From Ruegeria sp. ANG-S4 (lineage in GTDB: Bacteria > Pseudomonadota > Alphaproteobacteria > Rhodobacterales > Rhodobacteraceae), in the NCBI RefSeq assembly GCF_000814005.1, contig NZ_JWLK01000002.1, positions 434,001 to 498,000 on the forward strand: a stretch of DNA of 64,000 bases, read 5' to 3'. The notes beneath the pieces are model-generated. The model worked only from the letters and a program-made list of their open reading frames with translations, did not search any database and was not told the origin of the DNA. Positions 1,922-61,271 of this stretch are shown one piece after another. Position numbers and translations under genes: made by a program. Position 1 is the stretch's first letter, and each line of letters begins with the position of its first letter.

Positions 1922-3229
1922 TCACAAGGATGGCAAAAACAGTGCCAACCCGGGGAACGCGATCAGTAGAACGACCAGCAAAAGTGAGCAGAAGATAAAC
2001 GGGAAGGCGGACGTGTAGATTTCACGCATCGTCGTGCCCGGCGGCGCGACGCCTTTCATTACAAAAAGCAACAGCCCGAAGGGCGGCGTTGTAAAGCTGA
2101 TTTCAAGCGAAAGCAGCATGATCAGTCCGAACCAGATCGGGTCAAACCCAAGGGTCTGCGCCAGGGGAAAAAAGATCGGCACGGTCAGCAGCATGATCGA
2201 TATCTGCTCCATGAACATGCCCAGCAAGAGGAGTACCGCGAACATAACCGAAAGCATTGCCAGCGGGGCCAGTTCGAATGCAATGGCCCAGTTCACCAAT
2301 CCTCGGGACGCACCTGAAAACGCCAATAGCTGACTGAACGTGGCCGAGCCAAAAACGATCAGGTAGGCCATTAGAGTGACCTTCAAAGCGCCTGTTACCG
2401 ACTTTTTGATCGCCTCCCACGTCAAACAACGGAACAGCGCCGCAAGGACCAAAACACCCAACGCGCCGAAAGCCGCCGCTTCGGATGGGGTCACAAAGCC
2501 CTGAATCATCAGAACGATAATTACCACCATGACGCCGACCATCGGGACGACCTCGGTCATGAGCAACTTAAGGCGGTATCCCAGAGACATCGGCGCAACG
2601 TCATAGGCGGGGGCCGCATCTGGGTCTATCCGGGTCTGCAACCATATGGTCCCAATGTAAAACGCAGCCAGAATCAGTCCGGGGATGACCCCTGCAATAA
2701 GCAGCGCCGCAACGTCGATCTGCGCAAGTGTCGCCAGAAGAACCGCAAGAGCTGAAGGCGGGATTATGATTGCCAGACCACCTGTGCCCAGAATGGGCCC
2801 GATGCTCATATGCGACTTGTAACCACGCCTGTTCATTTCGGGCACCATGAGCGATCCCAACAGGGCTGTTGAGCCCATCGAAGAACCGGACAGGGTGGAA
2901 AACGCAGTGCCGCCCAAAACGGTCACATAGCTCAACCGCCCCGGCAATCGGCCGAGCAGTTTGTCGATCGCACTGAACATGCGCCCGCCCAGTCCGGTAT
3001 GAAAGAAAATCTCGCCCATCAACAAGAAAAGGGGGATCGGCATCAGGGCATATTTCGTCAATGCCCCAAGCCCGTTGTTGAGCAGTTGCGTGACGCCCCG
3101 TTCCCCGCCCATGAACACCCAGGCCCCAACGATATTGGCGGCCAGAAACGCCAAAGCGACAGGCATGCCAATGGCCATCAGGAACACGATTGATCCCAAC
3201 AACAGAGCCAGAGCCTCGTACCACTCCAT
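1922..3229 (-). CDS. dctM: TRAP transporter large permease (DctM)
   Basis: This 435-residue, very hydrophobic protein has about a dozen membrane segments and matches the DctM subunit of tripartite ATP-independent periplasmic transporters, for example the GSSMGSTALLGSLMVPEM, PPSALAVLLATLA and TTPPFGLLLFVMKGVAPPG stretches. It forms the ion-coupled solute channel. Its ATG overlaps the stop codon of the small permease by one base (TAATG), so the two are translationally coupled. It is the last gene of the leftward arm that also carries leuC and leuD, which makes it the likely importer of that pathway's substrate. Confidence 0.93.
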   Translation of the reverse strand: MEWYEALALLLGSIVFLMAIGMPVALAFLAANIVGAWVFMGGERGVTQLLNNGLGALTKYALMPIPLFLLMGEIFFHTGLGGRMFSAIDKLLGRLPGRLSYVTVLGGTAFSTLSGSSMGSTALLGSLMVPEMNRRGYKSHMSIGPILGTGGLAIIIPPSALAVLLATLAQIDVAALLIAGVIPGLILAAFYIGTIWLQTRIDPDAAPAYDVAPMSLGYRLKLLMTEVVPMVGVMVVIIVLMIQGFVTPSEAAAFGALGVLVLAALFRCLTWEAIKKSVTGALKVTLMAYLIVFGSATFSQLLAFSGASRGLVNWAIAFELAPLAMLSVMFAVLLLLGMFMEQISIMLLTVPIFFPLAQTLGFDPIWFGLIMLLSLEISFTTPPFGLLLFVMKGVAPPGTTMREIYTSAFPFIFCSLLLVVLLIAFPGLALFLPSL

Positions 3230-3729
3230 TATTCGTGAATCCCGGCTTCGCCGCTGTGCATCAGTTCGGCCCCAAAAACAAATCGCGAGAACTCAATCGC
3301 CATAAGCCCGAATGAAAGCGGGAAGGAGATCGTCAGCATCCAGCGGGGAAAGTAGTAGGCGCGGGTATCAAAATCTCCGCGCTCGACATTGGTCAGGACC
3401 AGATCAGCCCCCTGCCATGCAAGGATCAAGCAGACAACGACGCAGGCAGCCGCGACCGCACGGCTGACAATGCGGCGCAGGTGCAAAGGCAGTGCAGCAG
3501 TTACAAGTTCGATATGTACATGCCCTTTCTCCCGCACCAACCACGGCGCGCCAAGCATTGTCATGTACAAAAGACCGTATTCAGCGGATGTGAAAAGCCA
3601 TGCAAAGGGCTGGAGCCCAGCGTTTCGCATCAGGACCGACGTGATGACGGACAACATCAACCAGACCAGAAGCAGACCCGCGATGATGGCCATACCAAAC
3701 AGTACTGCGTCGTAGACCTTTTTCATCAT
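3229..3729 (-). CDS. dctQ: TRAP transporter small permease (DctQ)
   Basis: This 166-residue protein has four predicted membrane segments and the DctQ features ERGDFDTRAYYFPRW and KGHVHIELV. It pairs with DctM in the inner membrane. A longer reading frame from a TTG at 3768 exists, but the ATG at 3729 (MMKKVYDAVLFG) puts the first membrane helix at the N terminus and is the better start. It lies 63 bp downstream of the solute-binding protein gene and overlaps dctM by one base. Confidence 0.9.
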   Translation of the reverse strand: MMKKVYDAVLFGMAIIAGLLLVWLMLSVITSVLMRNAGLQPFAWLFTSAEYGLLYMTMLGAPWLVREKGHVHIELVTAALPLHLRRIVSRAVAAACVVVCLILAWQGADLVLTNVERGDFDTRAYYFPRWMLTISFPLSFGLMAIEFSRFVFGAELMHSGEAGIHE

Positions 3730-3792
3730 CCAGCCTGTTCTGCCCCAAGAATTTGACAGGCCCGGCAAATGCGCGCGGGCCTGCCGCCAGAC

Positions 3793-4806
3793 CTAGTTTG
3801 CAGCGTCGAGATCGTAGAACAGTTCGATCAGACGGTCATAATTCCCTGTTCCTCCGGGCTGTTCCGCCATGAGGCCATTCATCCGTTCCCACGTCTTTTC
3901 ACGCGCGGCGGCCAGGTAATTCGCCTTGGCGTCCCCTTCGAGGCTGACAACCGTCATTCCAGCCGCATCCAACGCCGCGAAATCTTCGTCCCGCTTGCTG
4001 CGCAGCGCTTCGACACTGTCTTTCTCGTGCTGAATCGCCACATCCTGCAGGATCGTACGAGCCTCGTCAGACAGTGAATTCCAGCGCTCCAGATTGACGA
4101 TTACGCCCAGGTCGGTCGAGAAGAAGCAAGGCTCGATGCGGTAGTTCAGAAACTCGTTCCATTTCAGGTCGATCAGACCGATCTGGGTCCACCCTGTCGC
4201 GTCCACAACACCTCGCTGCAGGGCCGAGTACACCTCGCCCGTCGGCAGATCGATCACCTGCGCGCCAAGATAGTTCGTAAAGAAAGCGTTGTAGACGTTG
4301 TTACCGCGCAGCTTCAGGCCTTCGACCTCAAGATTGCCGTCAGCATCGAAACTGGGCTCGTCACGGGTCCAAAGGTTATAGCAGACGCCACTGTCGAACC
4401 AGCCGAGGTATTTCAGCCCCATCTTTTCCTGATGGATCTGGTCGATCAACTCTGTGCCACCATTGGCGCGGGTCTCGATCGCGGTCAGGTTTGATGCGAC
4501 CATCGCATCCTTTTCGGGCAGCGCGCCGCCATAGAACGAACCGGGCGTGTAGACCATGTCGACAATCCCGTCTCGCACGGCGTCTGGCTGTTGAAACATA
4601 CCAATGGCCTCGGGTCCGCCGCGCACGTCAATCTGGATGACACCTTTGCCCGCCTCGTTCACCTTGTCGACGAAATCAAGAAAGCTCTGAGTGTAGATCA
4701 GGGTTTCGGGGAAGGCATGCACGGCCGAGATGGTTTCTTCGGCTTTGGCCGTTCCGGCAACCAGTACGGCCCCTGCCAACAGGCCAGCCAATGAATTCAT
4801 TTTCAT
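3793..4806 (-). CDS. dctP: TRAP transporter solute-binding protein (DctP)
   Basis: This 337-residue periplasmic binding protein begins with a clear signal peptide (MKMNSLAGLLAGAVLVAGTA, cleavage near AKA-EE). The start is the ATG at 4806, preceded by GGAGG; a longer frame to 4863 has no such site. DctP-family features include NNVYNAFFTNYLGAQVIDLP and GEVYSALQRGVVDATG. It captures an organic acid in the periplasm and delivers it to DctQM. TRAP binding proteins of this type usually bind carboxylates, which agrees with the neighbouring LeuCD-like hydratase, but the ligand is unknown. Confidence 0.92.
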   Translation of the reverse strand: MKMNSLAGLLAGAVLVAGTAKAEETISAVHAFPETLIYTQSFLDFVDKVNEAGKGVIQIDVRGGPEAIGMFQQPDAVRDGIVDMVYTPGSFYGGALPEKDAMVASNLTAIETRANGGTELIDQIHQEKMGLKYLGWFDSGVCYNLWTRDEPSFDADGNLEVEGLKLRGNNVYNAFFTNYLGAQVIDLPTGEVYSALQRGVVDATGWTQIGLIDLKWNEFLNYRIEPCFFSTDLGVIVNLERWNSLSDEARTILQDVAIQHEKDSVEALRSKRDEDFAALDAAGMTVVSLEGDAKANYLAAAREKTWERMNGLMAEQPGGTGNYDRLIELFYDLDAAN

Positions 4807-4904
4807 AGTTTTTCCTCCACTTGTTTCGGGGGCATTTTGTTGAGATCGCCCCATGTTTTTCATGGCATTTTTGCCTGTCTTGCGCCGTCTTCACGCGACG
4901 TCGG

Positions 4905-5516
4905 TCAATCGGGACCTGTTGGCCACGCCCAGGGGGTAGACTGATTGCGCAGGTTCCTGTGGGCGCCGATTGTTCGTTTGTGTTGTTGGGTTAGATCTAT
5001 GTCGTCCCAGCCGTTGATCAGTTTGACGCGCCATCCTTTATCCAGCTCAAAGGTGGTCGTGATGTCACCGAGTTTCAGTTGGTTCCTTGTGAGATCAATG
5101 GAAAGTTCTCCCGAGACACCTTTCAATACCTCCTTCATCTGCGAAATCATTGATTCATTAATCTGCGCAGGCAGCAGGCCATTATTGATCGCATTGTTGG
5201 CGAAGATGTCCCCGAAACTCGGCGCGATGACCGCTCGAAAACCGGCGTCCACAAGTGCATAAACCGCGGCCTCGCGCGACGACCCGCTTCCGAAATTCTG
5301 CCCAGTGATCAAAATGCTGACGCCTTCATGCCGGTTCAGAGGGAAATCCGCGGTAAGTTTTTCGCTCTCGTCCCGCCGCATGTCGTGCAAAAGATAGCGA
5401 CCATAGCCTTGGCTGCGCGGAACGGACATGAAGCGCGCCGGGATCAGTTGATCCGTGTCGATGTTATCAATCGCCAGGACAAGCGCCTGACCCCTGTGCT
5501 GGGTCCATCCGGCCAT
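4905..5516 (-). CDS. leuD: LeuD-type hydro-lyase small subunit (3-isopropylmalate dehydratase family)
   Basis: This 203-residue protein is the swivelling small subunit of an aconitase-superfamily hydratase. Typical features are DNIDTDQLIPARF near residue 20, NFGSGSSREAAVYAL near residue 75 and APSFGDIFANNAINNGLLP. The ATG at 5516 overlaps the leuC stop by one base (TGATG); the frame open upstream of it is leuC read in another phase. Its place beside a TRAP importer, a GntR regulator and, across the promoter, a KRCGH lyase suggests a catabolic hydratase (maleate, citraconate or dimethylmaleate type) rather than leucine synthesis. That role is an inference; the family call is firm. Confidence 0.88.
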   Translation of the reverse strand: MAGWTQHRGQALVLAIDNIDTDQLIPARFMSVPRSQGYGRYLLHDMRRDESEKLTADFPLNRHEGVSILITGQNFGSGSSREAAVYALVDAGFRAVIAPSFGDIFANNAINNGLLPAQINESMISQMKEVLKGVSGELSIDLTRNQLKLGDITTTFELDKGWRVKLINGWDDIDLTQQHKRTIGAHRNLRNQSTPWAWPTGPD

Positions 5517-6922
5517 CACGCCGCCCTGCCCTTTAATAGCGACCGCACATCCGTGATGGCGCCTGTCACCGCCGCGGCCGCAACCATGGCTGGCGACATC
5601 AAATGCGTGCGTGCCCCACGTCCCTGTCGGCCGCGGAAGTTCCGGTTCGTCGAAGACGCACAACGCTTGCCTTCGCCCACCACGTCACCATTCATACCAA
5701 CACACATTGAGCATCCGGATGCAGCCCACTCCAAACCAGCATCCTTGAAGATCCTGTCCAGCCCCTCGGCTTCGGCCTGCGCCTTGACCCGCGCCGAACC
5801 CGGAGAGATCAGGCCGGGCACGCACGCTCTGCGCCCGCTCAGAACCAACGCCGCCTCTCTGAGATCCTCGATGCGGCCATTTGTGCACGAGCCGATAAAG
5901 ACCTGATCTACGGGAATTCCAGCCAACGGTCGCCCCGGCCTCAGACCCATATAATCCAGTGCTTCGCGCGTCGAATGCTTCTTGGCAGGGTCAGCTTGGT
6001 CCGGGACTGGGATTTTTGCCGTGACGGGCAAAGCCTGCTCCGGGCTGGTGCCCCAGGTGACTGTTGGCGCGATATCAGCGGCGATGAAGGTCACCTCACG
6101 GTCGAAAACGGCACCCTGATCCGTGGCGAGGCCCCGCCACGTCTTTTGGGCCGTATCGTTGTCTTGGCCCATAGGCGCGTATTCCCTTCCGTTGAGATAG
6201 GCAAAAGTAACCTCGTCCGGGGCCACCATGCCAAACCGGGCACCGCCTTCGATTGAAAGGTTGCACAAGGTCATGCGCCCTTCCATCGTCAGATCCCGAA
6301 CTGCTTGTCCCGCGTATTCAACCGCATGACCTTGTGCACCGCCGGTTCCCAATCGCGCGATCCAGTTCAGCGCGATGTCTTTGGCCGTCACCCCTGCTCC
6401 AAGACTGCCATCGATATTGATCCGCATCGACTTTGGCTTTCGCTGCCAGATCGTCTGGGTCGCCAGCACATGCGCGACCTCGGTCGCCCCGATCCCGAAA
6501 GCCAGCGCGCCAAACGCACCATGTGTCGAAGTGTGGCTGTCACCACAGGTTATCAAAAGCCCCGGCAGCGTCAGGCCAAGCTCTGGACCGATGACATGCA
6601 CTATGCCTTGCGCCGGGTCGTCCAGATCGAAGATACGAAGGTTGTGACGCGCTGCATTCCCCCGCAATGTCTCGATCATTCCGGCAATATTCGGGTCGGC
6701 GATCCGAGATCGGTTCCGGGTTGGCGCATAATGGTCGACAACCGCGAAGGTCAGGCCGGGTTCGGCCACGGGTAAGTCGCGCTCTGACAATTTTGCGAAG
6801 GCATGATGCGATCCTTCGTGCACCAGGTGCCTGTCGACCCACAGCAGCGATACACCATCCTCACGCGTCAGAACCTCATGCGAGGCCCAGAGCTTGTCGA
6901 GCATGGTGCGCGGTGGGCTCAT
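5516..6922 (-). CDS. leuC: LeuC-type hydro-lyase large subunit (3-isopropylmalate dehydratase family)
   Basis: This 468-residue protein is the 4Fe-4S subunit of an aconitase-superfamily hydratase. The three cluster cysteines are visible in GSCTNGRIEDL (near residue 345) and ASGCSMCVGMN (near 405 and 408); the N terminus has the MLDKLWASHEVL and DHYAPT blocks. The ATG at 6922 overlaps the stop codon of the GntR gene (ATGA), so the regulator and hydratase are coupled. With LeuD it would hydrate or dehydrate a branched dicarboxylic acid. Biosynthetic leuCD normally sits with leuB; here the company is a transporter and lyase genes, pointing to catabolism. The true substrate is undetermined. Confidence 0.9.
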   Translation of the reverse strand: MSPPRTMLDKLWASHEVLTREDGVSLLWVDRHLVHEGSHHAFAKLSERDLPVAEPGLTFAVVDHYAPTRNRSRIADPNIAGMIETLRGNAARHNLRIFDLDDPAQGIVHVIGPELGLTLPGLLITCGDSHTSTHGAFGALAFGIGATEVAHVLATQTIWQRKPKSMRINIDGSLGAGVTAKDIALNWIARLGTGGAQGHAVEYAGQAVRDLTMEGRMTLCNLSIEGGARFGMVAPDEVTFAYLNGREYAPMGQDNDTAQKTWRGLATDQGAVFDREVTFIAADIAPTVTWGTSPEQALPVTAKIPVPDQADPAKKHSTREALDYMGLRPGRPLAGIPVDQVFIGSCTNGRIEDLREAALVLSGRRACVPGLISPGSARVKAQAEAEGLDRIFKDAGLEWAASGCSMCVGMNGDVVGEGKRCASSTNRNFRGRQGRGARTHLMSPAMVAAAAVTGAITDVRSLLKGRAA

Positions 6923-7722
6923 TCCCCGCCCTCTTCGCTGCGTCCGATGGCGGGTTCCCAATGACGAGCCGAGCCGGTCCCAACGCGCGCCAAAGGCATT
7001 TCGAGGCGGAACATGTCTGGCCGGTACAGGCCCGAAAGATACTCGACCCCGTTGCCTTCGACATCGCGAACGATCCGCTTCAGAGACAACAAGGCTGATC
7101 CGACAGCGACGCCCAAGGCCTCGGCCACGTCGGGGCCAGCCAGAGTTGCAGACACTGTTTGATGCGCTTCTTCGATTTGTACCCCACCCCGTTCCAAAAG
7201 CTTGAACAGTGGCGTGGTGGCAAGGTCGCTTTCCGAATAGTTCCGCGCGATCGACGCGGGCACGTAAGTTGTCAGATGTGAAAACGGAACGTCACCGGTC
7301 AGACGTACGCGCGTGGCGATCTGCACCTGATGGTCGACAGGCAGCCCCATGGCCGCGGAAACAGCATCGGGGGCCTTTCCATAAGAAAACGACAATAGCC
7401 GCGCGGTGGTGCTTTGCCCCATTTCGACAAGCTGCGGCATCAACGTGTTGAAATTCATCGCAGCGGGCACCGCAAGCGCGGATTGGCCCGAGACCTTTGT
7501 GCCGCTGCCTGCCTGCCGTTCGATCAAACCATTGTTCGACAGCGCCTCCAGCGCGCGCCGGATGGTTACACGAGACACTCCGAACTTCTCGGCCAACCGC
7601 TGTTCGCCCGGTAGAGTGTCCCCGGCTGAAAGCTGCCCCTCGGTGATCTGATCATGCAAAGACAGATAGACGCGCTGCGCCTTGGTTCCGTCCGGAAGAT
7701 TGGCCGCGCTGATCTTGTTCAC
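6919..7722 (-). CDS. GntR family regulator with UTRA ligand-binding domain
   Basis: About 267 residues if the GTG at 7722 is used; a TTG at 7779 gives 286. The N-terminal winged helix shows the HutC-subfamily pattern (LPGEQRLAEKFGVSRVTIRR), followed by a UTRA effector domain (YGKAPDAVSAAMGLPVDHQV through GVEYLSGLYRPDMFRLEM). It is the first gene of the leftward arm, overlaps leuC by four bases, and faces the rightward catabolic genes. It most likely represses both arms through the inverted repeat at 7831-7848 and releases on binding a pathway intermediate. The start codon is the main uncertainty. Confidence 0.88.
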   Translation of the reverse strand: MNKISAANLPDGTKAQRVYLSLHDQITEGQLSAGDTLPGEQRLAEKFGVSRVTIRRALEALSNNGLIERQAGSGTKVSGQSALAVPAAMNFNTLMPQLVEMGQSTTARLLSFSYGKAPDAVSAAMGLPVDHQVQIATRVRLTGDVPFSHLTTYVPASIARNYSESDLATTPLFKLLERGGVQIEEAHQTVSATLAGPDVAEALGVAVGSALLSLKRIVRDVEGNGVEYLSGLYRPDMFRLEMPLARVGTGSARHWEPAIGRSEEGGE

Positions 7723-7830
7723 CCTGTGATTCCCCGTTTGAGACACCACTGATCGTAAAACGGCCCCTTGGAAAATCAAGCTTTAGTATTACCTTGCTGA
7801 GAAAATTAGTCTTATCTTTTTCTGTTAATC

Positions 7831-7848
7831 TGTATTACGTTTAATACA
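7831..7848. promoter_or_regulatory. Probable GntR operator, TGTATTA-N4-TAATACA
   Basis: A perfect inverted repeat with 7-base arms (TGTATTA at 7831-7837, TAATACA at 7842-7848) separated by CGTT. It lies in the AT-rich divergent intergenic region, 22 bases before the GTG of the rightward operon. This is the usual form of HutC-type GntR sites. A weaker GTATTA-like half site lies near 7785. Binding by the adjacent regulator is inferred. Confidence 0.7.
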
Positions 7849-7869
7849 TTAAAAGAGAGGAGCCGCGAC

Positions 7870-8436
7870 GTGCCGATTGTCGAATTGCATGTGATGGAAG
7901 GTTACGATGTGCAAGAAAAACAGCGGCTTGGCGCGTTTTTGACTCGGGCAGTACGATTCGTGATACCTGCGGAACCGGACGCGGTCACCGTTCTCATCCA
8001 CGACACCCCCGAACAGAATTTCTTTCGCGGTGGCGAGCCGAAACAACTTGCCCGGGCGAAGCAAGACCCGGAGCTGATCGTGCGTGCGTTCCTGTCCGAA
8101 ATGGGTGAGCGAGCATTTGAAAACGCGGGCCTCAGGCTTGCCCCAGACTTTGTCATGCAGTTCCCCGGGGCACCGCCGATGCGAGATCTTGCAGACCTGA
8201 TGGCATGGGCCGCAATCCGCTATCGCAAAATTGCAAAAACATATGTTGGGTTTGACGCGCTGCAAAGTGATGGCAACGCAGCGATCGTTTATTGCCGCGG
8301 AACACTGTCCGGTGAGTGGTTGGATGGCACCCCTTTCGAAGGCATCCGGTTCATCGACAGCTTCGAAGTCGAAGACAACCTTATAACGCGTCAGGACGTC
8401 TGGAACGACATTGCAGAAGTAAAGGCACAGGCATGA
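7870..8436 (+). CDS. Tautomerase-like / SnoaL-like two-domain protein
   Basis: The 188-residue product starts at a GTG preceded by AGAGGAG. Residues 1-60 (PIVELHVMEGYDVQEKQRL) resemble the 4-oxalocrotonate tautomerase/MIF fold, with a Pro right after the initiator as in enzymes that use Pro1 as a base. The region from about residue 75 (LIVRAFLSEMGERAFENAGL, then YCRGTLSGEWLDGTPFEG and FIDSFEVEDNLITRQDVW) resembles a SnoaL/NTF2-like domain. It is the first gene of the rightward arm and overlaps hyuB by four bases. A role in isomerising an unsaturated keto or enol acid is plausible. Both domain calls rest on short motifs. Confidence 0.65.
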   Translation: MPIVELHVMEGYDVQEKQRLGAFLTRAVRFVIPAEPDAVTVLIHDTPEQNFFRGGEPKQLARAKQDPELIVRAFLSEMGERAFENAGLRLAPDFVMQFPGAPPMRDLADLMAWAAIRYRKIAKTYVGFDALQSDGNAAIVYCRGTLSGEWLDGTPFEGIRFIDSFEVEDNLITRQDVWNDIAEVKAQA

Positions 8437-10127
8437 GCGAAATTGACCCGATAACCCTATCGGTTCTGGCGGGCCGTATGGAACAGATCGCCGACGAAAT
8501 GGACGCAACCCTGTTTCGGGCCGCTTTCAATCCAATCATTGCCGAGGCGCATGACGCCAGCCATGGCCTGTATTCCGCAACGACGGGCGACACCTTGGTT
8601 CAAGGCAAGTCCGGCCTGCCGATATTCGTGGGTGTCATGTCTTTTGCTGTGAAAGCGGTTATCGAGAAGGCCGCATCAGATGGCGATCTTGAAGATGGAG
8701 ACATCTATATTTTCAACGATGCGCATATCGGCGGGACACATCTGTCTGACATGCGGCTGGTGCGGCCCTATTTCCGCGATGGCAAGCTGTTCTGCTATCT
8801 CGCATCGGTTGGGCACTGGCATGACGTCGGCGGTGCCGTTCCCGGAAATTACAACCCCGCCGCAACCGAGGTTTTTCAGGAAGCGTTTGTTCTGCCGCCT
8901 GTCAAGCTGGCACGCAAGGGTGAAGTCAATCAGGACATCATCGACATTCTGCTTCGAAACACACGCCTGCCTCAATCGGCAATGGGTGATCTGAACGGGC
9001 AACTGGGCGCACTGGATCTGGGCGTCCGCAGGATGGACGAACTGCTTGACGAATACGACGCGGATACCGTCGCGTCCGCGCTTGAGGCTCTGGGGAACCG
9101 GGCCGAAGTTCTCATGCGGTCCGAATTGCAGGACTTGCCGGACGGCCGGTGGGAGGCTGAGGATTTCCTCGACAACGACGGTATCACCGATACGCCGCTG
9201 CGCATAAATCTGGCGCTTGAAATCGAAGGGGACCGGATGGTTCTGGATTTCACGGGCTCGTCGGCGCAATGCGCAGGACCCGTAAACATCGCCCTTCCGA
9301 CGACCGTCGCTACGGCTTATGTCGCGATCAAGCACGTCTTTCCTTCGCTACCTGCAAATGCCGGCGTGATGCGCCCTATCGACGTAATCGTACCCGAGGA
9401 CAGTCTTTTGTCCGCAGAGTTTCCTGCCCCGACAGGTGGTTACACCGAGACGATTCTGCGCATGATCGACGTGGTTTTTTCTGCCTTTGCCAAGGCCGCG
9501 CCGGATCGGGTTGTTGCCAATGCCTATGGCACGATCAACGCGCTTTCGATTGCCGGAAAACGCGCGAACGGGCAGCCTTGGGTCATGTTCAGCTTTTATG
9601 GCGGCGGACACGGTGGCTCGATCGAAAGCGATGGGTTGAACCACGGTAATGCGCCGATCTCGACAGCGACAATTCCGCCTATGGAAATCCTCGAGGCGGC
9701 GTATCCCGTCATGTTCCGGCAATGGGCGCTGCGCCCTGACAGCGCAGGCGCGGGTGCTCATCGCGGCGGGCTTGGCGCGGTCTACGAAATTGAAGTCCTG
9801 GAAGAAAACGGCGCCGAGGCCTTTCTTTTCGGTGAACGCGGCAAGTTTTCACCAAAAGGAGTTGCCGAAGGCGGCGATGGGGCAATGAACGTCTTTACCT
9901 ACGAGCAAAGCGAAGGCTGGAAGGCACCGCCCTTGGTGTCAAAGATGCGAGGGATCAAGTTGAAGCAAGGACAGGCTGTTCGTCTGGAAACACCCGGCGG
10001 CGGCGGATACGGCGCGGCAGGCAGCAGGGCTGCAGAGGCCATTGCGACAGATGTCGCGCGTGGGCTTGTCAGCGCAGACCACGCCGATCAGGCCTACGGG
10101 ACCGCATGGCGAAAGGTGTCACAATGA
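8433..10127 (+). CDS. hyuB: Hydantoinase B / 5-oxoprolinase subunit (HyuB)
   Basis: This 564-residue protein starts at the ATG overlapping the previous stop codon (ATGA). HyuB-family features include DPITLSVLAGRMEQIADEM at the N terminus, DATLFRAAFNPIIAEAHDAS, GDIYIFNDAHIGGTHLSDM, and the closing GGGGYG. With HyuA it forms an ATP-dependent hydrolase of cyclic amides (hydantoins, 5-oxoproline, N-methylhydantoin) or, in the related acetone and acetophenone carboxylases, a carboxylase. A frame open upstream to 8316 is only the previous gene out of phase. Confidence 0.9.
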   Translation: MSEIDPITLSVLAGRMEQIADEMDATLFRAAFNPIIAEAHDASHGLYSATTGDTLVQGKSGLPIFVGVMSFAVKAVIEKAASDGDLEDGDIYIFNDAHIGGTHLSDMRLVRPYFRDGKLFCYLASVGHWHDVGGAVPGNYNPAATEVFQEAFVLPPVKLARKGEVNQDIIDILLRNTRLPQSAMGDLNGQLGALDLGVRRMDELLDEYDADTVASALEALGNRAEVLMRSELQDLPDGRWEAEDFLDNDGITDTPLRINLALEIEGDRMVLDFTGSSAQCAGPVNIALPTTVATAYVAIKHVFPSLPANAGVMRPIDVIVPEDSLLSAEFPAPTGGYTETILRMIDVVFSAFAKAAPDRVVANAYGTINALSIAGKRANGQPWVMFSFYGGGHGGSIESDGLNHGNAPISTATIPPMEILEAAYPVMFRQWALRPDSAGAGAHRGGLGAVYEIEVLEENGAEAFLFGERGKFSPKGVAEGGDGAMNVFTYEQSEGWKAPPLVSKMRGIKLKQGQAVRLETPGGGGYGAAGSRAAEAIATDVARGLVSADHADQAYGTAWRKVSQ

Positions 10128-12184
10128 CTGGGCGCATGGTCGGGGTGGATGTCGGCGGGACGTTCACAGATGTCTTTGTTCTGAACGAAGCGGATGGACG
10201 TGCAACCGTTGCCAAGGTGCCAACAACGCGCCCGGATCAGTCTGGCGGGTTCCTTGACGGAATTGGGCGCGAGGTCCGCGATCTGTCCGAGATTGCTGTC
10301 GTTGTTCATGGCACCACAGCCGGGACAAATGCCCTGTTGGAGCGCAAGGGCGCAAAAACAGGCGTGATCTGCACCCAAGGCCTGAGAGATGTTTTGGAGA
10401 TGCGTCGCCGCGACCGACCACGGACCTGGGGCCTGCGCGGTGATTTCGAGCCCGTTGTCGACCGCCGCAACAGGCTCGAGGTTCCCGAACGTACCCTTGC
10501 AGACGGCAGCATTCGCACGCCGGTCGATCTGGACGCGGTGCGCAATGCTGCCGAGCAACTGCGCGCACAGGGATGCGAGGCCGTGGCAATCTTGTTTGCA
10601 AACGCCTATGCCAACCCGGAAAACGAAGCCGCCGCCGTGGCCGCAGTAAGAGCCATCTGGCCCAATCCGCATGTGTCGGCTTCATCGGAAATTCTTCCGG
10701 AGATACGAGAATTCGAGCGGTTTTCGACCACCGCGCTGAACGCTTACCTGCAGCCCGAGGTCTCGGGCTATTTGACGCGTTTGGAAAACGCGCTGCGCTC
10801 TGGCGGGTTTGATGGTGAGTTCATGATCGTGCAATCCAATGGCGGTGTCATGGGTGTCAACACTGCTAGTCGCCTGCCTGTCCGAACGGCGCTTTCGGGC
10901 CCCGCAGCGGGCGTGATTGCGGCCGGTTACATCGCGCAATCCGCTGGTTTCGACAATGTCATTACCGGCGATATGGGCGGCACAAGCTTTGATGTCTCGC
11001 TGATCTCAGCCGGGCAGACGATGTTGTCGGCACAAACCTCAATCGACTTTGGCATGGTTGTGCGCAACCCCATGATCGAGGTAACGACCATAGGTGCCGG
11101 GGGCGGTTCGATTGCGTGGGTCGATAAAGGCGGGTTGCTGAATATCGGCCCGGAAAGCGCCGGTTCGAACCCCGGTCCAGTCGCCTATGGGCTGGGCAAT
11201 GATCGCCCCACGGTCACGGATGCCAATGTCGTTCTTGGTCGGATTGATCCGGACAACCCGATTGGTGGCAAGCTGGATCGTCTGGACGTCGAGGCCGCCG
11301 GAAAAGCGATTGACAACCACGTGGGCAAGCCGCTCAACCTGTCGCGACTTGAGGCCGCCGAAGCCATCCTGCGCGTTGCCAATTCCCGCATGGCAGGCGC
11401 AATTCGGCTTGTCAGTATCGAGCGCGGATTTGACCCCAAACGTTTTGCTTTCATGCCGTTTGGCGGCGGCGGCGCTTTGCATGCCGGTGCGATGCTGGCC
11501 GAAGTCGGAATCGCCCGCGCAATTGTTCCACGCTATCCCGGTGTGACCTCGGCACTGGGGTGCGTGATCGCCGATATGCGGCAGGATTTCGTTCAGACGA
11601 TCAACACTCTGGTCTCTCATCTGGACGAAAGTGCCCTTGGCGCGTTCATGCAGGATCATGTTGATCAGGGCATGGGCCTGCTGGACGCTTCTCGAACAAC
11701 CTTCGACACAAGAGACACTTCGTTCGAACTCGACATGGCTTACGTGGGGCAAACGCATACTGTGCCCGTCCCGCTGGTCGTCACACTGTCAGACGGCAAA
11801 GTCAGCGCACCCGACAAAGCCGAGATCGAACAGGCCTTTGATGCAGCATATCATGCCACCTATGGAAGGTTGTTAAGAAACGGCGTGCGTCGGATTCTGA
11901 ATCTGCGCAGCGCAGTTACCGGCAGGCGGCCAAAATTCGACCTTTCCTCGCTGGCGCCGCAGACTGAAGGTGCCGCGACACCAGTCGGAGCACGGAAAGT
12001 GCATTTTGGGCATGCCTGGCACGATACCGCCATTTACGACCGCCTGTCTTTGCCGGTCGGCACCATCATCAATGGACCGGCAATCCTGACGCAGCCAGAC
12101 ACGACCGTTCTGATCGAACCCGGTTTTCACGGACGCGTAGACAGCTTTGGAAACACGATTATCGAGCTGCAGGAGGTAGGCTGA
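10124..12184 (+). CDS. hyuA: Hydantoinase A / 5-oxoprolinase subunit (HyuA)
   Basis: The 686-residue product starts at 10124 with the four-base overlap ATGA with hyuB; an ATG at 10106 would add six residues. The N terminus carries the actin-like ATPase motif VGVDVGGTFTDVFVL, followed by VVHGTTAGTNALLERKGA and, in the centre, GDMGGTSFDVSL and GGGGALHAGAMLAEVG. It supplies ATP-driven activation of the cyclic amide or ketone substrate for HyuB. Its stop codon directly abuts the start of the next gene. Confidence 0.9.
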   Translation: MTGRMVGVDVGGTFTDVFVLNEADGRATVAKVPTTRPDQSGGFLDGIGREVRDLSEIAVVVHGTTAGTNALLERKGAKTGVICTQGLRDVLEMRRRDRPRTWGLRGDFEPVVDRRNRLEVPERTLADGSIRTPVDLDAVRNAAEQLRAQGCEAVAILFANAYANPENEAAAVAAVRAIWPNPHVSASSEILPEIREFERFSTTALNAYLQPEVSGYLTRLENALRSGGFDGEFMIVQSNGGVMGVNTASRLPVRTALSGPAAGVIAAGYIAQSAGFDNVITGDMGGTSFDVSLISAGQTMLSAQTSIDFGMVVRNPMIEVTTIGAGGGSIAWVDKGGLLNIGPESAGSNPGPVAYGLGNDRPTVTDANVVLGRIDPDNPIGGKLDRLDVEAAGKAIDNHVGKPLNLSRLEAAEAILRVANSRMAGAIRLVSIERGFDPKRFAFMPFGGGGALHAGAMLAEVGIARAIVPRYPGVTSALGCVIADMRQDFVQTINTLVSHLDESALGAFMQDHVDQGMGLLDASRTTFDTRDTSFELDMAYVGQTHTVPVPLVVTLSDGKVSAPDKAEIEQAFDAAYHATYGRLLRNGVRRILNLRSAVTGRRPKFDLSSLAPQTEGAATPVGARKVHFGHAWHDTAIYDRLSLPVGTIINGPAILTQPDTTVLIEPGFHGRVDSFGNTIIELQEVG

Positions 12185-12805
12185 ATGAGCGATCCAGAGA
12201 CCTGGGACCCCCGCAAGACCGCACTGCTGACCATCGACCTGCAAAACGACTTTATTCACCCTGACGGAGCATATGGTCGAGCTGGCCAGTCGGCCCAAAG
12301 CATTATGGCGCTTCCCGATCGCATCGCCCCATTGGCGCGCCAGTTGCAAGCCGCTGGCGGGCGGTATTTTTCAGCGCAATTCACGCTAGTTCCAGACCGC
12401 GATGGACAGCCCCTGATTGCACCGCACCTCAAGCAATTAAGGCCATTTCTGACCAAAGGTGATTTTGCACCGGGCGGGTTTGGTCACGGTTTGGTTGATG
12501 CGCTGCAGCCCTGCGATTTTGTCATCGAAAAGGTAGCCTACTCAGCCTTTTTTCAAACGCGCCTTGAATTTCTGATGCGTGCCGTGGGAATCGAAAACCT
12601 GATTGTCGGCGGGATCGTGACCAATGGGGGTGTCGCCTCAACCCTGCGGGATGCACATTTGCGCAATATCGAAACCGTGATGCTGACAGACGGATGCGCT
12701 GCGTTCCGGCAAGACGTTCATGACGCAACGCTGCTTTCGCTGGGCACAGTTACGCACCAGCGCACTTGCACCCAGATGTTGAATTGGCTGGAGGGAACCG
12801 GATGA
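12185..12805 (+). CDS. Isochorismatase-fold hydrolase lacking the usual catalytic Cys
   Basis: The 206-residue protein has the family's opening aspartate block (ALLTIDLQNDFIHPDGA), a lysine in FVIEKVAYSAFF and the cis-peptide region GGIVTNGGVASTLRDA. In amidases of this family (N-carbamoylsarcosine amidase, maleamate amidase, nicotinamidase) that last segment has Cys; here the position is Gly, as in true isochorismatases. It may therefore hydrolyse an ether or ester-like bond, use another nucleophile, or be non-catalytic. It starts at the base after the hyuA stop and overlaps the lyase gene by four bases, so it belongs to the operon. Confidence 0.8.
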   Translation: MSDPETWDPRKTALLTIDLQNDFIHPDGAYGRAGQSAQSIMALPDRIAPLARQLQAAGGRYFSAQFTLVPDRDGQPLIAPHLKQLRPFLTKGDFAPGGFGHGLVDALQPCDFVIEKVAYSAFFQTRLEFLMRAVGIENLIVGGIVTNGGVASTLRDAHLRNIETVMLTDGCAAFRQDVHDATLLSLGTVTHQRTCTQMLNWLEGTG

Positions 12806-13668
12806 CCCTTAAATCCCGCCTGACAAAAAAGGAAATTCTTGTCGCGCCCGGTGTCTACGATGGCTTGACGGCCTCGTTGGCCGAAGACGCCGGTTTTGAA
12901 GCGCTCTATCTCAGCGGGGCGGCGGTCGCTTACGCCCGATTGGGCCGCCCCGATATCGGGCTTTCCACAGCGTCTGAAATGGCGGACACGATGACGCTTA
13001 TCGCCGATCGGGTCTCACTGCCCGTAATAATCGACGCCGATACTGGCTTTGGCAACGCGCTGAACGCCCAGCGCACCATGCGGCTTTATGAGCGGGCCGG
13101 TGCATCGGCATTGCAGATCGAAGATCAAACCTATCCCAAACGATGTGGACATCTGTCTGACAAATCGTTGATTTCGGCGCAGGAAATGGCTGGAAAAATC
13201 GCGGCTATGGCCGACGCGCGCGTCAGAGACGACACGCTGATTATCGCTCGAACAGACGCCATAGCTGTTGAGGGCTTCAACGCAGCAACCGACCGCGCCG
13301 AAGCCTATCTGGAAGCCGGGGCGGACGTTCTTTTCCTCGAAGCGCCGCAAAGCCGTGACCAACTGGCCGGCATCGCGGATCGTTTTGCACCTCGGGTTCC
13401 TTTGTTGGCAAACATGGTCGAAGGTGGCGCAACACCGATACTTGATGCGACCGATCTGGAGTCGCAAGGCTATTCGATCGTGATTTTCCCGGGCGGGATT
13501 GTGCGGGCCTTGGCCAAGACGGCACAGGCGTATTACCAGAGCTTGGCTGCCAACGGCTCAAACAAGCCTTTTGCGAATAGCATGTTCGACTTTGCCGGGC
13601 TGAACGACGTCATCGGAACGGATGAGATGCTGCAGGCTGGGGCACGCTATGATGACACCCAGGGTTGA
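12802..13668 (+). CDS. ICL/PEPM-family carbon-carbon lyase (dimethylmalate/methylisocitrate lyase type)
   Basis: This 288-residue TIM-barrel enzyme carries the Mg2+-site DADTGFG (about residue 75) and the lyase loop PKRCGHL (about residue 115), whose Cys is the catalytic acid/base in isocitrate, methylisocitrate and 2,3-dimethylmalate lyases. PEP mutases lack this KRCGH loop, so C-C cleavage of a 2-hydroxy diacid is favoured. The ATG at 12802 overlaps the previous stop (ATGA). Beside a LeuCD-type hydratase, the parallel is hydration of an alkylmaleate followed by cleavage to a 2-oxo acid plus a short acid. The exact substrate is unproven. Confidence 0.87.
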   Translation: MTLKSRLTKKEILVAPGVYDGLTASLAEDAGFEALYLSGAAVAYARLGRPDIGLSTASEMADTMTLIADRVSLPVIIDADTGFGNALNAQRTMRLYERAGASALQIEDQTYPKRCGHLSDKSLISAQEMAGKIAAMADARVRDDTLIIARTDAIAVEGFNAATDRAEAYLEAGADVLFLEAPQSRDQLAGIADRFAPRVPLLANMVEGGATPILDATDLESQGYSIVIFPGGIVRALAKTAQAYYQSLAANGSNKPFANSMFDFAGLNDVIGTDEMLQAGARYDDTQG

Positions 13669-15019
13669 AGAGTCCCTGCCTGATCAGTTCGATCTAAAAA
13701 CCGGCACATTGATTATCGGCGCAGGAGCGTGCGGTATGGTTGCTGCCTTGTCTGCTGCCGAGGCCGGGCAGGATGTGCTGGTTATCGAAGCTGATCCAGT
13801 TCCCAGCGGCTCGACAGCATTGTCGGCAGGTTTGATCCCGGCAGCTGGTACAAAAGTACAAAAGGCCGCCGGAATTTCTGACGACGCTGGCCGCTTTGCA
13901 AACGACATCCAGGCCAAGGCGGGAAATGAAAACGAGCAGGTGCTGGTCGATCTATTGGCCAACAACGCTGCCGAGGTCATCGACTGGCTGGGCGACCGTC
14001 ACGCCCTGCCCTTTTCGTTAGTGACGGACTTCGACTATCCCGGCCACTCTCGCCGTCGCATGCATGGGCTGCCGACGCGGTCCGGTGAGGAGTTGATCAA
14101 CGCCTTGCGCAGCGCTTGTGAGCGGGAAGAACTGGACATTATCTGCAATCTCCGCGCAGCTACGATCTACAAGGATCAGGATCGAATCCGAGGCATAGCC
14201 GTAACCGGACCGGACTCGCGTATCGAAAAAATTTCCTGCGACCGCCTTATCCTCGCATGCAATGGATTTGGCGGCAATCGCGCCCTGGTCGCCGAGCATA
14301 TGCCGCAAATTGAACGGGCGCTCTGGTTTGGGCACAGCGGTAACCGCGGTGAGGCCGTTGTTTGGGGTCAAACGCTGGGTGCGCAATTGCAAAACCTGGG
14401 CGCTTACCAAGGTCACGGCAATGTCGCGCATCCACACGGCATCTTGATAACCTGGGCTGTGATCACGGAGGGCGGAGTGCAGGTGAACCGCGACGGGCAC
14501 CGATTCTGGAACGAGGCGCAAGGCTATTCCGAGGCGGCCCGCGCAGTTCTTATGCAGCCCGGCGGCGCGGCATTCGCAATTTTTGACGAACGCATCGCCG
14601 CAATCGCGCGCCAGTTCGAAGATTTCAAACGCGCAGAGGCGTCCGGGGCTATTCATACCGGCAATACGATCGGTGCCCTTGCCAACAGTTTGGGCCTGCC
14701 CCCAGAGACACTGGAGCGAACGCTGCAGGAAATACCTGACGAGGGATCGGATCAGTTTGGCAGGCGTTTCACTCCGCCTTCACTGTCGCCGCCATACAAG
14801 GGCGTACGCGTCACGGGTGCTTTGTTTCATACCCAAGGCGGCTTGCGGGTCGATTCATCGGCTCGCGTTCTTAAACAAGACGGTACCGCATTCACCAACC
14901 TGTTCGCAGGCGGCGGCGCGGCGGCAGGTATTTCCGGTACCGGCGACAGCGGCTATCTTTCCGGAAACGGGTTATTGAGTGCCGTTGTGCTAGGTCGAAT
15001 TGCCGGGCGAAATCACTGA
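13649..15019 (+). CDS. FAD-dependent dehydrogenase/reductase, fumarate reductase flavoprotein-like
   Basis: About 456 residues, starting at one of two adjacent ATGs (13649 or 13652) that overlap the end of the lyase gene. The N-terminal FAD fold is GTLIIGAGACGMVAALSAAE, followed by STALSAGLIPAAGT. The C terminus has the family's GLRVDSSARVL and FAGGGAAAGISGTGDSGYLS segments. Relatives (fumarate reductase flavoprotein, 3-ketosteroid dehydrogenase, tricarballylate dehydrogenase) add or remove hydrogen across a C-C bond next to a carbonyl. Last gene of the rightward operon. It could desaturate a succinate-like intermediate to a maleate- or fumarate-like one for the hydratase (inference). Confidence 0.82.
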   Translation: MMTPRVEESLPDQFDLKTGTLIIGAGACGMVAALSAAEAGQDVLVIEADPVPSGSTALSAGLIPAAGTKVQKAAGISDDAGRFANDIQAKAGNENEQVLVDLLANNAAEVIDWLGDRHALPFSLVTDFDYPGHSRRRMHGLPTRSGEELINALRSACEREELDIICNLRAATIYKDQDRIRGIAVTGPDSRIEKISCDRLILACNGFGGNRALVAEHMPQIERALWFGHSGNRGEAVVWGQTLGAQLQNLGAYQGHGNVAHPHGILITWAVITEGGVQVNRDGHRFWNEAQGYSEAARAVLMQPGGAAFAIFDERIAAIARQFEDFKRAEASGAIHTGNTIGALANSLGLPPETLERTLQEIPDEGSDQFGRRFTPPSLSPPYKGVRVTGALFHTQGGLRVDSSARVLKQDGTAFTNLFAGGGAAAGISGTGDSGYLSGNGLLSAVVLGRIAGRNH

Positions 15020-15224: not shown

Positions 15225-15821
15225 TTAGACATCAAACGCATATGGCGGGGCGGGATCATAGTGGATCTCGCGCTGAACCAGACGCGCATAAGCAGGGTCA
15301 GAGATCTGGCCTACAATCCAAAGCGACATGTCGATACCCGCAGAAATACCCTGCGACGAGATGTAGTTTCCGTCGCGGACAAACCGAACATCTTCAAGAA
15401 CTTCTGCCGCTTCACCACGTTCGCGCAGTTCTTCGACAACGCCCCAATGCGTCGTGATCCGCTTACCTTTGGCGATACCGGATGTCAGGGTGATACGGGC
15501 CCCTGAACAGACACTCGCCACCATCTCACAGCCTTCGGCGGTTTTGTTCACCCACTCGATGAGCTTTTCATTGTGTTGCGCTTTGCGCGTTCCCGGGCCA
15601 CCCGGAATAATCAGGATGTCGGGCTTTGGTGCATCTTCAAAGGTGTAGTGCGGGGGAAGCTTCATGTTGAGAATGCAGGTCACCGGGTCCATTGTTTCGC
15701 CGACCAGGTAGACGTTGCAGACGTCATCCTTTTGCGTGGCAGCCGTTCCGAAGACTTCATAGGGCCCGACAGCGTCCAGTTCTTCGACCCCGTCGAAAAT
15801 CAAAATTGCGATATTTTTCAT
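15225..15821 (-). CDS. DJ-1/PfpI family protein, isonitrile-hydratase-like
   Basis: This 198-residue protein starts at the ATG at 15821 (MKNIAILIFDGVEELDAVGP); a GTG seven codons earlier is less likely. It has the DJ-1/PfpI nucleophile elbow ASVCSGARITL with Cys near residue 105, and the following TTHWGVVEEL and DGNYISSQGISAGIDMSLW segments match the stand-alone relatives of GlxA regulators, including isonitrile hydratase. The reaction is not certain: protease, glyoxalase and hydratase members share this fold. It is divergent from a GlxA regulator gene, which probably controls it. Confidence 0.82.
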   Translation of the reverse strand: MKNIAILIFDGVEELDAVGPYEVFGTAATQKDDVCNVYLVGETMDPVTCILNMKLPPHYTFEDAPKPDILIIPGGPGTRKAQHNEKLIEWVNKTAEGCEMVASVCSGARITLTSGIAKGKRITTHWGVVEELRERGEAAEVLEDVRFVRDGNYISSQGISAGIDMSLWIVGQISDPAYARLVQREIHYDPAPPYAFDV

Positions 15822-15867
15822 GATCCATCCACTCAGTTTCACTCTGGTGACCGTTAGGAGAGTTGGT

Positions 15868-15877
15868 CTGACGTCAG
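15868..15877. promoter_or_regulatory. Palindrome CTGACGTCAG between DJ-1 and GlxA genes
   Basis: A perfect 10-base palindrome in the 108-bp divergent region, 47 bases upstream of the DJ-1 start and 52 bases upstream of the GlxA start. It is a candidate operator for the adjacent GlxA regulator. A 10-base palindrome can arise by chance, so this rests mainly on position. Confidence 0.4.
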
Positions 15878-15929
15878 TTTATCCAAATGCCTCTTGACAG
15901 AAATGATATAGTTCAGTCTTTTTCTGCCA

Positions 15930-56133: not shown

Positions 56134-56138
56134 GACAG

Positions 56139-57005: not shown

Positions 57006-57031
57006 ACTTGTCGAAATCGGGAGGGAAATAC

Positions 57032-58126: not shown

Positions 58127-58131
58127 CCGAA

Positions 58132-60662: not shown

Positions 60663-60665
60663 CCT

Positions 60666-61271
60666 ATGGCGCTTCAAAGAGATTACAGTGGACGCGCGGT
60701 CGTCATTCACGGTCTGAATGTCGACACCGACGCGATGCTGCCAAAGCAGTTCTTGCGGACCGTCAAACGCACCGGCCTCGCAAGTGCTTTCTTTCACAGT
60801 GACCGGCAGGCGCATGATGAACGCGGCTCGACCCATCCATTGGACGAGGAGCGCGCGACAGGCGCGCGCGTTCTCATCGGTGGTGAGAACTTTGGCTGCG
60901 GGTCGTCACGGGAACATGCGGTTTGGGCGCTGGCCGATTTCGGTTTCACGACCGTCATCGCACCATCGTTTGGGTCGATCTTCGAAATCAACTGCGTCAA
61001 CAATCTGATTTCATGTGTGAGGCTACCTGCAGATCGCCACGACGATCTCTTGCAACTCTTGGCAGATGATCCCGAATTGGAAGTTTCGCTCGACATCGAA
61101 AACAACATATTGCGATGCGGAGAGGATTATGCCGTTCCCATCGAAATGGATGATGGTTTTCGCGAGAGGCTGAGGTTTGGCCGGGACATGATCGATATGA
61201 CCGAACGCCACCTGCCGCAGATCGAGGAATATGAAAGCGCGCAACGCACGCGCTTTCACTGGCTTTGGTGA
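60666..61271 (+). CDS. leuD: LeuD-type hydro-lyase small subunit without a LeuC partner
   Basis: The 201-residue protein has the small-subunit pattern: GLNVDTDAMLPKQFLRTVKR, GGENFGCGSSREHAVWAL and IAPSFGSIFEINCVNNLISC. It starts four bases after the ABC ATPase stop, so it is in the operon. No LeuC-type gene lies beside it; the only one in the window is at 5516-6922 with its own LeuD. It could pair with a LeuC encoded elsewhere, or share the other one. The hydratase role, again beside an ICL/PEPM lyase, is the key clue to this locus. Confidence 0.88.
   Translation: MALQRDYSGRAVVIHGLNVDTDAMLPKQFLRTVKRTGLASAFFHSDRQAHDERGSTHPLDEERATGARVLIGGENFGCGSSREHAVWALADFGFTTVIAPSFGSIFEINCVNNLISCVRLPADRHDDLLQLLADDPELEVSLDIENNILRCGEDYAVPIEMDDGFRERLRFGRDMIDMTERHLPQIEEYESAQRTRFHWLW

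Follow-up and report, generated by a model that had tools for sequence, protein, structure and literature searches.

Organization of the gene set

Here, we describe a divergent gene set of Ruegeria sp. ANG-S4 that encodes a two-subunit HyuAB protein, an isochorismatase-fold protein without the catalytic Cys of its family, a LeuCD-type hydratase, and a lyase of the ICL/PEPM family, together with a GntR regulator, a tripartite ATP-independent periplasmic (TRAP) transporter, and two further proteins. The set occupies positions 1922–15019 of the window, a 64,000-nucleotide stretch (C12:434001–498000) of a 4.53 Mb genome in 20 contigs. It is widely conserved and apparently undescribed, and combines known enzyme families in a new way. 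All genes named in a first-pass annotation, made from the DNA letters and their translated reading frames, were found again by Pfam and NCBIfam assignments (Table 1). The span given there, 3229–15019, starts at dctQ and holds the remaining genes, but dctM falls outside it. The gene called tautomerase-like does have a tautomerase domain and is really a tautomerase–SnoaL fusion.

Table 1 Features of the gene set, with positions in the window.
Feature	Position	Strand	Assignment
dctM, TRAP large permease	1922..3229	-	PF06808 257 bits; TIGR00786 above cut-off
dctQ, TRAP small permease	3229..3768	-	PF04290 78 bits
dctP, TRAP substrate-binding protein	3793..4863	-	PF03480 85 bits; NF037995 above cut-off
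leuD-type hydratase small subunit	4905..5519	-	PF00694; PRK01641 above cut-off
leuC-type hydratase large subunit	5516..6922	-	PF00330 515 bits
gntR/HutC-type regulator, UTRA domain	6919..7779, start as predicted	-	PF00392, PF07702
Operator-like palindrome TGTATTA-CGTT-TAATACA, between the divergent arms	7831..7848		
Tautomerase–SnoaL fusion, accessory (predicted)	7870..8436	+	PF01361 + PF12680
hyuB, ATP-dependent lactamase metal subunit (predicted)	8433..10127	+	PF02538 564 bits
hyuA, ATP-binding subunit (predicted)	10106..12184	+	PF01968, PF05378, PF19278
Isochorismatase-fold hydrolase without catalytic Cys	12185..12805	+	PF00857 105 bits
ICL/PEPM-family lyase, KRCGH motif	12802..13668	+	PF13714 147 bits
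FAD_binding_2 flavoprotein, accessory (predicted)	13649..15019	+	PF00890 190 bits

The genes of both arms are tightly packed. With the starts as chosen, dctQ and dctM overlap by 1 base, and leuC/leuD and gntR/leuC by 4 bases each on the minus strand, where gaps of 41 and 24 bases separate leuD from dctP and dctP from dctQ. On the plus strand, the overlaps are 4 bases for the fusion gene and hyuB, 22 for hyuB and hyuA (or 4 with a later hyuA ATG at 10124), 4 for the isochorismatase-fold gene and the lyase gene, and 20 for the lyase and flavoprotein genes; hyuA and the isochorismatase-fold gene abut directly. Between gntR and the fusion gene lies a perfect palindrome of the form TGTATTA-N4-TAATACA, whose only exact copy in the whole genome is this one. 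Of 98 divergent intergenic regions, the window's own among them, 79 have a best match that agrees with it at no fewer than 11 of the 14 positions, a count made without a shuffled control. The GntR protein presumably binds the palindrome as its operator. Other regulon members were sought as a clue to the substrate, and this approach was dropped: allowing two mismatches adds two sites, and the total of three is below that of the reversed-pattern control.

Co-occurrence of the core genes

We sampled 244 genomes of the order to which the window belongs and 398 genomes of its phylum. The lyase was counted as absent when no match reached E ≤ 1e-40, and HyuB when none reached 1e-120; in the genome searches with the lyase, HyuB, and the isochorismatase-fold protein and in the phylum search, the best first-look candidates were the ones scored. 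The lyase matched in 70 of the 244 genomes, which fall into two separate groups, 41 at 59% identity or more and the rest at 49% or less. HyuB matched in 65 genomes, 43 of them at 61% identity or more and the others at 44% or less, and the isochorismatase profile (E ≤ 1e-30) in 44. The three sets are nested, the 41 lyase genomes lying within the 43 HyuB genomes and these within the 44 isochorismatase genomes (Fisher p about 1e-43 to 1e-47, a value that ignores shared ancestry). The first-pass annotation had named a failure to co-occur in related genomes as an outcome that would speak against it; this did not occur, and 41 of 41 lyase genomes carry both HyuB and the isochorismatase-fold gene.

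Neighborhoods of 16.5–18.5 kb were fetched for each of 40 lyase loci (59% identity or more) other than the window's own. HyuA, HyuB, and the isochorismatase-fold protein are encoded in all 40, as is a LeuCD pair, which is of the window type (LeuC + LeuD) in 36 and consists of a different LeuC2/LeuD2 in four. A related gntR is present in 39 loci, the flavoprotein in 36, the tautomerase–SnoaL fusion in 35, and a related dctP in 29, some of the stretches stopping before dctP. At least 583 stretches in Genome Taxonomy Database (GTDB) contigs encode a relative of the isochorismatase-fold protein, and the best 80 were examined in context (loci L076–L155, genes mapped by tblastn): these have the lyase in 80, hyuA in 79, hyuB in 75, leuC in 71, and leuD in 68. 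Many of these 80 loci are on truncated contigs and some are repeat genomes of L036–L075; therefore, locus counts are not independent. At the phylum level, eight of the 398 sampled genomes match, the window's own included. The grouping of these genes is not due to chance. The core occurs in marine and soil bacteria, and 41 of the 244 sampled genomes of the order have it. Literature searches on maleimide degradation and on HyuAB/LeuCD/lyase clusters found no description of the gene set, and the papers listed for dimethylmaleate or its lyase, judged by title, did not concern this cluster.

HyuAB and the isochorismatase-fold protein

In direct alignment with the caprolactamase CapAB (6YRA), HyuB has the same residues as CapB at the metal ligands D41, H99, D102, and H124, and all 112 HyuB sequences compared have these four residues. 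HyuA keeps the CapA motifs DxGGTxTD, DxGGT, and GxxPGP. Caprolactamase mutants at the same metal ligands are inactive, according to PMC8453981. Conservation of the ATP motifs and of all four metal ligands agrees with the initial view of HyuAB as a probable opener of a cyclic imide or lactam.

Cys hydrolases of the isochorismatase fold, including NicF, RutB, BiuH, and TrtA, have an Asp-Lys-Cys triad, of which the window protein keeps Asp and Lys and has Gly in place of Cys. All 13 aligned proteins share Asp18 and Lys116, and Gly149, which aligns with TrtA Cys162, is Gly in 41 of 41. The same Gly is found in all 174 tblastn hits above 48% identity (172 with GIVTNGGV and two with GIVTNGGI), a number that includes genome repeats and of which 135 fall in L036–L155 and L164–L179. 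We therefore rejected an ordinary Cys amidase as the identity of this protein. PMC7948467 describes the triad of TrtA and the inactivity of its C162S variant. Because Cys is replaced by Gly across the clade, the public label "cysteine hydrolase" is misleading for these proteins. A Gly at this position is also the state of the true isochorismatases EntB and PhzD, which hydrolyze an enol ether. The first-pass annotation listed this gene and gave it no role; co-occurrence places it, Cys-less, in the core of the set. How a Cys-less member might act on an amide can be pictured from the chemistry of dialkylmaleamic acids: the cis carboxylate of a maleamate might itself attack the amide, with the enzyme giving only acid–base help. 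A maleimide-like substrate might also alkylate a catalytic Cys, which would favor a Cys-free enzyme. The only hit bearing Cys (TSMCV) is a second paralogue in L075 (2165–2707, 34% identical), which lies upstream of the core genes together with genes for an NMT1-type ABC transporter and an Amidohydro_2 protein.

LeuCD hydratase

The window LeuC shares 53% identity with the product of the other leuC in the genome (L001), where leuD lies about 0.6 kb from leuC. The window LeuD has the signature SREAAVYAL versus SREHAPWAI in the LeuD of L001, and the window-type LeuDs of relatives have the same signature or the near variants SREGAVYAL and SREAAVYTL. On this one within-genome comparison, the difference may carry functional weight, and it favors setting this LeuCD apart from isopropylmalate isomerase, as had been suggested at first. 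By profile score, the window LeuC is above the cut-offs of PRK12466 (716 bits; cut-off 531) and TIGR00170 (619; 560), and the window LeuD is above that of the isopropylmalate-dehydratase family TIGR00171 (156; 116) and below that of the LeuD/DmdB family TIGR02087 (81 versus 109). The LeuC2/LeuD2 pairs of L072 and L177 exceed the PRK00402 and TIGR02087 cut-offs, with 159 and 152 bits for LeuD2 against TIGR02087. DmdB is a subunit of dimethylmaleate hydratase. Two hydratase subfamilies, one of them LeuD/DmdB, thus fill the same LeuCD slot.

The window also contains a second module at 54718–61268 (L183 4719–11269) with an aldehyde dehydrogenase gene, an ABC transporter (Peripla_BP_4, BPD_transp_2), another ICL/PEPM-family lyase gene (56148–56984, 35% identical), and an orphan LeuD gene (60666–61268). 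The orphan LeuD has SREHAVWAL, as in the CoA-transferase-type clusters L168–L170, and no LeuC match was found near it in the module.

The lyase and its replacement

The KRCGH motif of the lyase is present in 12 of 12 aligned sequences, window included. Its best solved relatives are 2-methylisocitrate lyases and its top NCBIfam match is prpB, at 299.8 bits versus a cut-off of 354.4. With a score below this curated equivalog cut-off, an identity as PrpB was rejected; the first-pass annotation had named a methylisocitrate lyase expressed on propionate as an outcome that would speak against it. In cluster alignments, made from L036–L155 after removal of hits that fell below 45% identity, covered no more than 80%, or contained stops, at least 98% of 116 lyases have EGG versus EFG in five methylisocitrate lyase chains (three of them alike), and the window lyase has FPGG where 1mum reads YPLS. 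Both positions presumably shape the pocket for the C2 substituent. The lyase would need a 2-hydroxy-3-substituted diacid, which is compatible with an alkylmaleimide-derived skeleton.

Three of the 244 genomes (G036, G060, and G192) have the isochorismatase-fold gene and no match to the lyase. All three have a family III CoA-transferase gene beside LeuCD and, in divergent orientation to it, a gene of the HMG-CoA-lyase family. The G060 and G192 copies share 68% and 75% identity with the one in G036, and tblastn alone served to identify the copy of G192. Against the cut-off of 246 for the NCBIfam hydroxymethylglutaryl-CoA lyase, the G036 copy (L168) scores 265 and the G060 copy (L180) falls just under it at 245.6. 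HMG-CoA lyase cleaves a C–C bond in a tertiary 3-hydroxyacyl-CoA. To judge from these gene contents, a CoA-transferase gene together with one of the HMG-CoA-lyase family can stand in for the lyase. Because of this swap, the simplest explanation is that the LeuCD product is an alkylmalate-type hydroxyacid that needs cleavage, either directly or as a CoA ester. HyuAB has no match in G036, and L168 is the only isochorismatase locus without HyuAB among the lyase-negative genomes. It also contains genes for a FAD_binding_3 monooxygenase, an Amdase-family protein, a short-chain dehydrogenase/reductase, and an aldehyde dehydrogenase; by analogy, the monooxygenase and the Amdase-family gene might recall the maleamate branch of nicotinate degradation.

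A third ICL/PEPM lyase gene (45%) of the same genome lies with an aconitase-family gene and an IclR regulator gene in L182 (C12:374000–392000, 42–60 kb before the window), and a distant HyuB gene (31%) is about 6 kb from the aconitase and lyase genes. A similar aconitase/lyase pair is located beside the core set in a Roseibium metagenome-assembled genome (L106).

Accessory proteins and arrangements in relatives

When aligned with the flavocytochrome c fumarate reductase 1qo8, the flavoprotein has Tyr at both substrate-Arg positions, which we take to be Arg402 and Arg544 of the Shewanella enzyme; Tyr occupies these positions in 99 and 98 of 99 aligned flavoproteins (one gap). These replacements led us to reject a dicarboxylate desaturase and point to a substrate with an uncharged carbonyl, for example an imide or enone, for which ketosteroid dehydrogenases offer a comparison. 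The N-terminal Pro (position 2) of the tautomerase is kept in 100 of 101 aligned sequences (one gap). Neither protein has a match in the Paraburkholderia set, and several Rhodobacterales loci are also without them. Because of these absences, we rejected a core role for both, and they look accessory. The first-pass annotation had made desaturation by the flavoprotein a core step. As a core step this falls away, as several sets show no match to the gene and the active site does not look like the dicarboxylate type, while its outline of hydratase, lyase, and HyuAB is largely supported.

In distant relatives from other families and classes, the gene content is mostly kept and the gene order is changed. 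L164 has the order lyase-hyuB-hyuA-isochorismatase-flavoprotein-leuC-leuD, and L167 leuC2-leuD2-hyuB-hyuA-isochorismatase-flavoprotein-lyase. The order is GntR-Liv ABC-lyase-hyuB-hyuA-isochorismatase-flavoprotein-leuC-leuD in Azospirillum and GntR-Liv ABC-LeuC2-LeuD2-hyuB-hyuA-isochorismatase-lyase in Paraburkholderia, and an MmgE/PrpD gene is added in Roseomonas and Neorhizobium. In Tistrella, the genes are distributed over two plasmids, one with MmgE-lyase-tautomerase-flavoprotein-racemase-family genes and the other with HyuAB-isochorismatase-acyl-CoA dehydrogenase-CoA-transferase-LeuCD. The transporters near the sets are of TRAP, TctC, Liv-type ABC, or NMT1-type ABC families.

Several further genes accompany the set in relatives. 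L172 (14800–16262) and L173 (19225–20651) each have two genes of the Asp/Glu/hydantoin-racemase family and one for an OYE-family ene-reductase labelled as nitronate monooxygenase or tRNA-dihydrouridine synthase (L172 3929–4891; L173 4053–5024). In Neorhizobium, the OYE-family gene separates leuD from gntR, and in Tistrella it comes before gntR. In L053 (11594–18001), the core set is directly followed by a TRAP system, two FAD_binding_3-like genes, and an Amdase-like gene, a group related to that of L168. To the right of the set, the window has a DJ-1/PfpI gene and a divergent AraC/FtrA-like regulator gene (15225–16904). The right-hand neighbors dj1 and gbdR have no match in the 40 lyase loci; the left-hand neighbors DAO and gst have none in the same 40 either, mostly lying beyond the stretch fetched.

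Proposed pathway and alternative explanations

Building on the observed gene content, co-occurrence, gene replacements, residue changes, and palindrome, we propose a catabolic pathway. That it follows a logic of ring opening and subsequent hydration and cleavage is probable. We further put forward, tentatively and as a reading a little short of evenly balanced, that the set is a complete regulon of its own for breaking down a small cyclic imide or lactam, and that opening the ring leaves the carbon skeleton of a substituted maleate. A substrate of the maleimide or maleamate class is possible though on the doubtful side, with an alkyl- or dialkylmaleimide as the leading candidate; such compounds would fit HyuAB (as imides), the odd isochorismatase-fold protein, the LeuD/DmdB hydratase of relatives, and the lyase. 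The substrate would be taken up by the TRAP transporter, or by ABC or TctC-type systems in relatives. HyuAB would open the ring at the expense of ATP to yield an alkylmaleamate, from which the Cys-less isochorismatase-fold enzyme would free ammonia by Asp/Lys acid–base catalysis, the cis carboxylate of the substrate possibly replacing Cys. LeuCD would hydrate the alkylmaleate to a 2-hydroxy-2,3-dialkylsuccinate (alkylmalate), and the lyase would split this, releasing a 2-oxoacid together with a carboxylic acid. In genomes without a lyase match, the CoA-transferase and the HMG-CoA-lyase-family enzyme would make the same cleavage on the CoA ester. The flavoprotein and the tautomerase–SnoaL fusion may bring in saturated or isomeric forms, and GntR would control the whole set from the palindrome.

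Several points weigh against this proposal. The enzyme functions, their reactions and regulation, and the substrate are all predicted from sequence. Both HyuA and HyuB score slightly better with the solved N-methylhydantoinase than with CapAB, and the racemase-family genes of two clusters may point to hydantoins. Loss of Cys calls for a special mechanism, as maleamate amidases such as NicF keep it, and the isochorismatases proper, which have Gly there, do different chemistry. L166 has the lyase, HyuAB, and the isochorismatase-fold protein and shows no match to LeuCD or the flavoprotein in the 19.9 kb fetched, and the 25 kb fetched from the Tistrella lyase plasmid encode neither HyuAB nor the isochorismatase-fold protein nor LeuCD. 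Finally, the transporters do not fix the substrate.

If the set served hydantoin catabolism, the ring opened by HyuAB would be that of a hydantoin with a 5-substituent or an N-methyl group, the isochorismatase-fold enzyme would remove the carbamoyl group, and the amino acid would be processed further. The HyuAB scores and the racemase-family genes favor it, as does the classical N-methylhydantoin arrangement, in which a HyuAB pair adjoins an isochorismatase-fold gene. However, carbamoyl amidases of this fold use the Cys that is replaced throughout the clade, it is not apparent what LeuCD and the lyase would do with an amino acid, the CapB His124 position is His in the window HyuB and Gln in N-methylhydantoinase, and the L173 racemase-family protein has Thr and Ser at what we presume to be the positions of the catalytic Cys pair. 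We regard hydantoin catabolism as improbable. An unlikely explanation, which nevertheless accounts for the Gly, is a cyclic enamide or pyridine-derived lactam that HyuAB would convert to an enamine acid; the Cys-less enzyme would then hydrolyze the enamine by carbon protonation, which resembles the enol-ether chemistry of isochorismatase, and the disubstituted maleate would come from further steps outside the cluster. PhzD and EntB are both among the relatives, and FAD_binding_3-type monooxygenase genes are located beside the set in L168 and L053. Yet the enzymes that would have to convert the aldehyde acid so formed to a maleate, namely the reductase, mutase, and isomerase of nicotinate fermentation, are missing from the annotation of the six-gene Paraburkholderia set.

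It is also conceivable, though very improbable, that HyuAB is an ATP-dependent carboxylase that builds the substrate rather than opening it. The superfamily is the same and the subunits of acetone and acetophenone carboxylases are matched by HyuAB, but behind N-methylhydantoinase and caprolactamase 6YRA, and the set has only two subunits while these carboxylases need more. Least credible of all is a chance gathering of propionate/methylcitrate or leucine genes, with LeuCD as isopropylmalate isomerase and the lyase as PrpB. The LeuC and LeuD scores above isopropylmalate-dehydratase cut-offs, the prpB match, and the MmgE/PrpD genes of some relatives favor it; the sub-threshold lyase score, EGG instead of EFG, the other leuC with its leuD in the same genome, the lack of a citrate-synthase gene in the set, and the link to HyuAB in every lyase genome contradict it.

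Within the proposed imide pathway, a maleimide derived from tetrapyrroles is a speculative and rather unlikely substrate. The set would then, with equally slim prospects, be a bacterial route for the monopyrrolic debris of chlorophyll and heme, namely hematinic acid and methyl ethyl or methyl vinyl maleimide. HyuAB would open the dialkylmaleimide, and the Cys-free enzyme would deaminate the dialkylmaleamate through the substrate carboxylate and so avoid Cys alkylation. After hydration by LeuCD, the lyase products would be pyruvate and glutarate from hematinic acid, and a 2-oxoacid and a short fatty acid from methyl ethyl maleimide. PMC7318184 reports hematinic acid in leaves and cites prior work that found maleimides in lake sediments and in senescent leaves; against this route, maleimides could not be detected in that study's own samples. 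Maleimides are named as tetrapyrrole degradation products in PMC8669743. Our literature search found no link between maleimides or hematinic acid and this cluster. If the route exists, what bacteria do with the fragments of chlorophyll and heme that geochemists use as biomarkers would become directly testable.

Comparison with known systems

The set joins a predicted ATP-dependent ring opener, a hydratase, and a C–C lyase with a Cys-less member of a Cys-hydrolase family, and each part has a counterpart in a known system. Like the methylcitrate cycle (AcnD/PrpD/PrpB), it would hydrate a substituted cis-alkene diacid and cleave the product in the ICL manner, and some relatives add MmgE/PrpD; unlike that cycle, it comes without a citrate synthase, its hydratase is of another family, and its lyase is below the prpB cut-off. 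The HyuAB pair shares with caprolactamase CapAB and N-methylhydantoinase the two-part architecture and ATP motifs, and with CapB the Asp-His-Asp-His metal site. It differs from CapAB in scoring 512 and 312 bits versus equivalog cut-offs of 1000 bits, and the cluster HyuB copies (at least 61% identity) are set apart from the other HyuB matches listed in the 244 genomes (at most 44%).

The maleamate branch of aerobic nicotinate degradation uses the maleamate amidase NicF and the maleate isomerase NicE. An isochorismatase-fold protein acting on a proposed maleamate would resemble this branch, as do the Amdase-family gene in L168 and the related one near the set in L053, whereas NicF has Cys and the present set is predicted to hydrate and cleave rather than isomerize to fumarate. 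Nicotinate fermentation by Eubacterium barkeri ends with the dimethylmaleate hydratase DmdAB and 2,3-dimethylmalate lyase. In that organism, the maleate arises through a B12-dependent mutase and an isomerase, in contrast to HyuAB and the Cys-less isochorismatase-fold protein of these Proteobacteria; common to both is a LeuCD-homologous hydratase followed by an ICL/PEPM lyase, with a LeuD/DmdB small subunit in some relatives of the window set.

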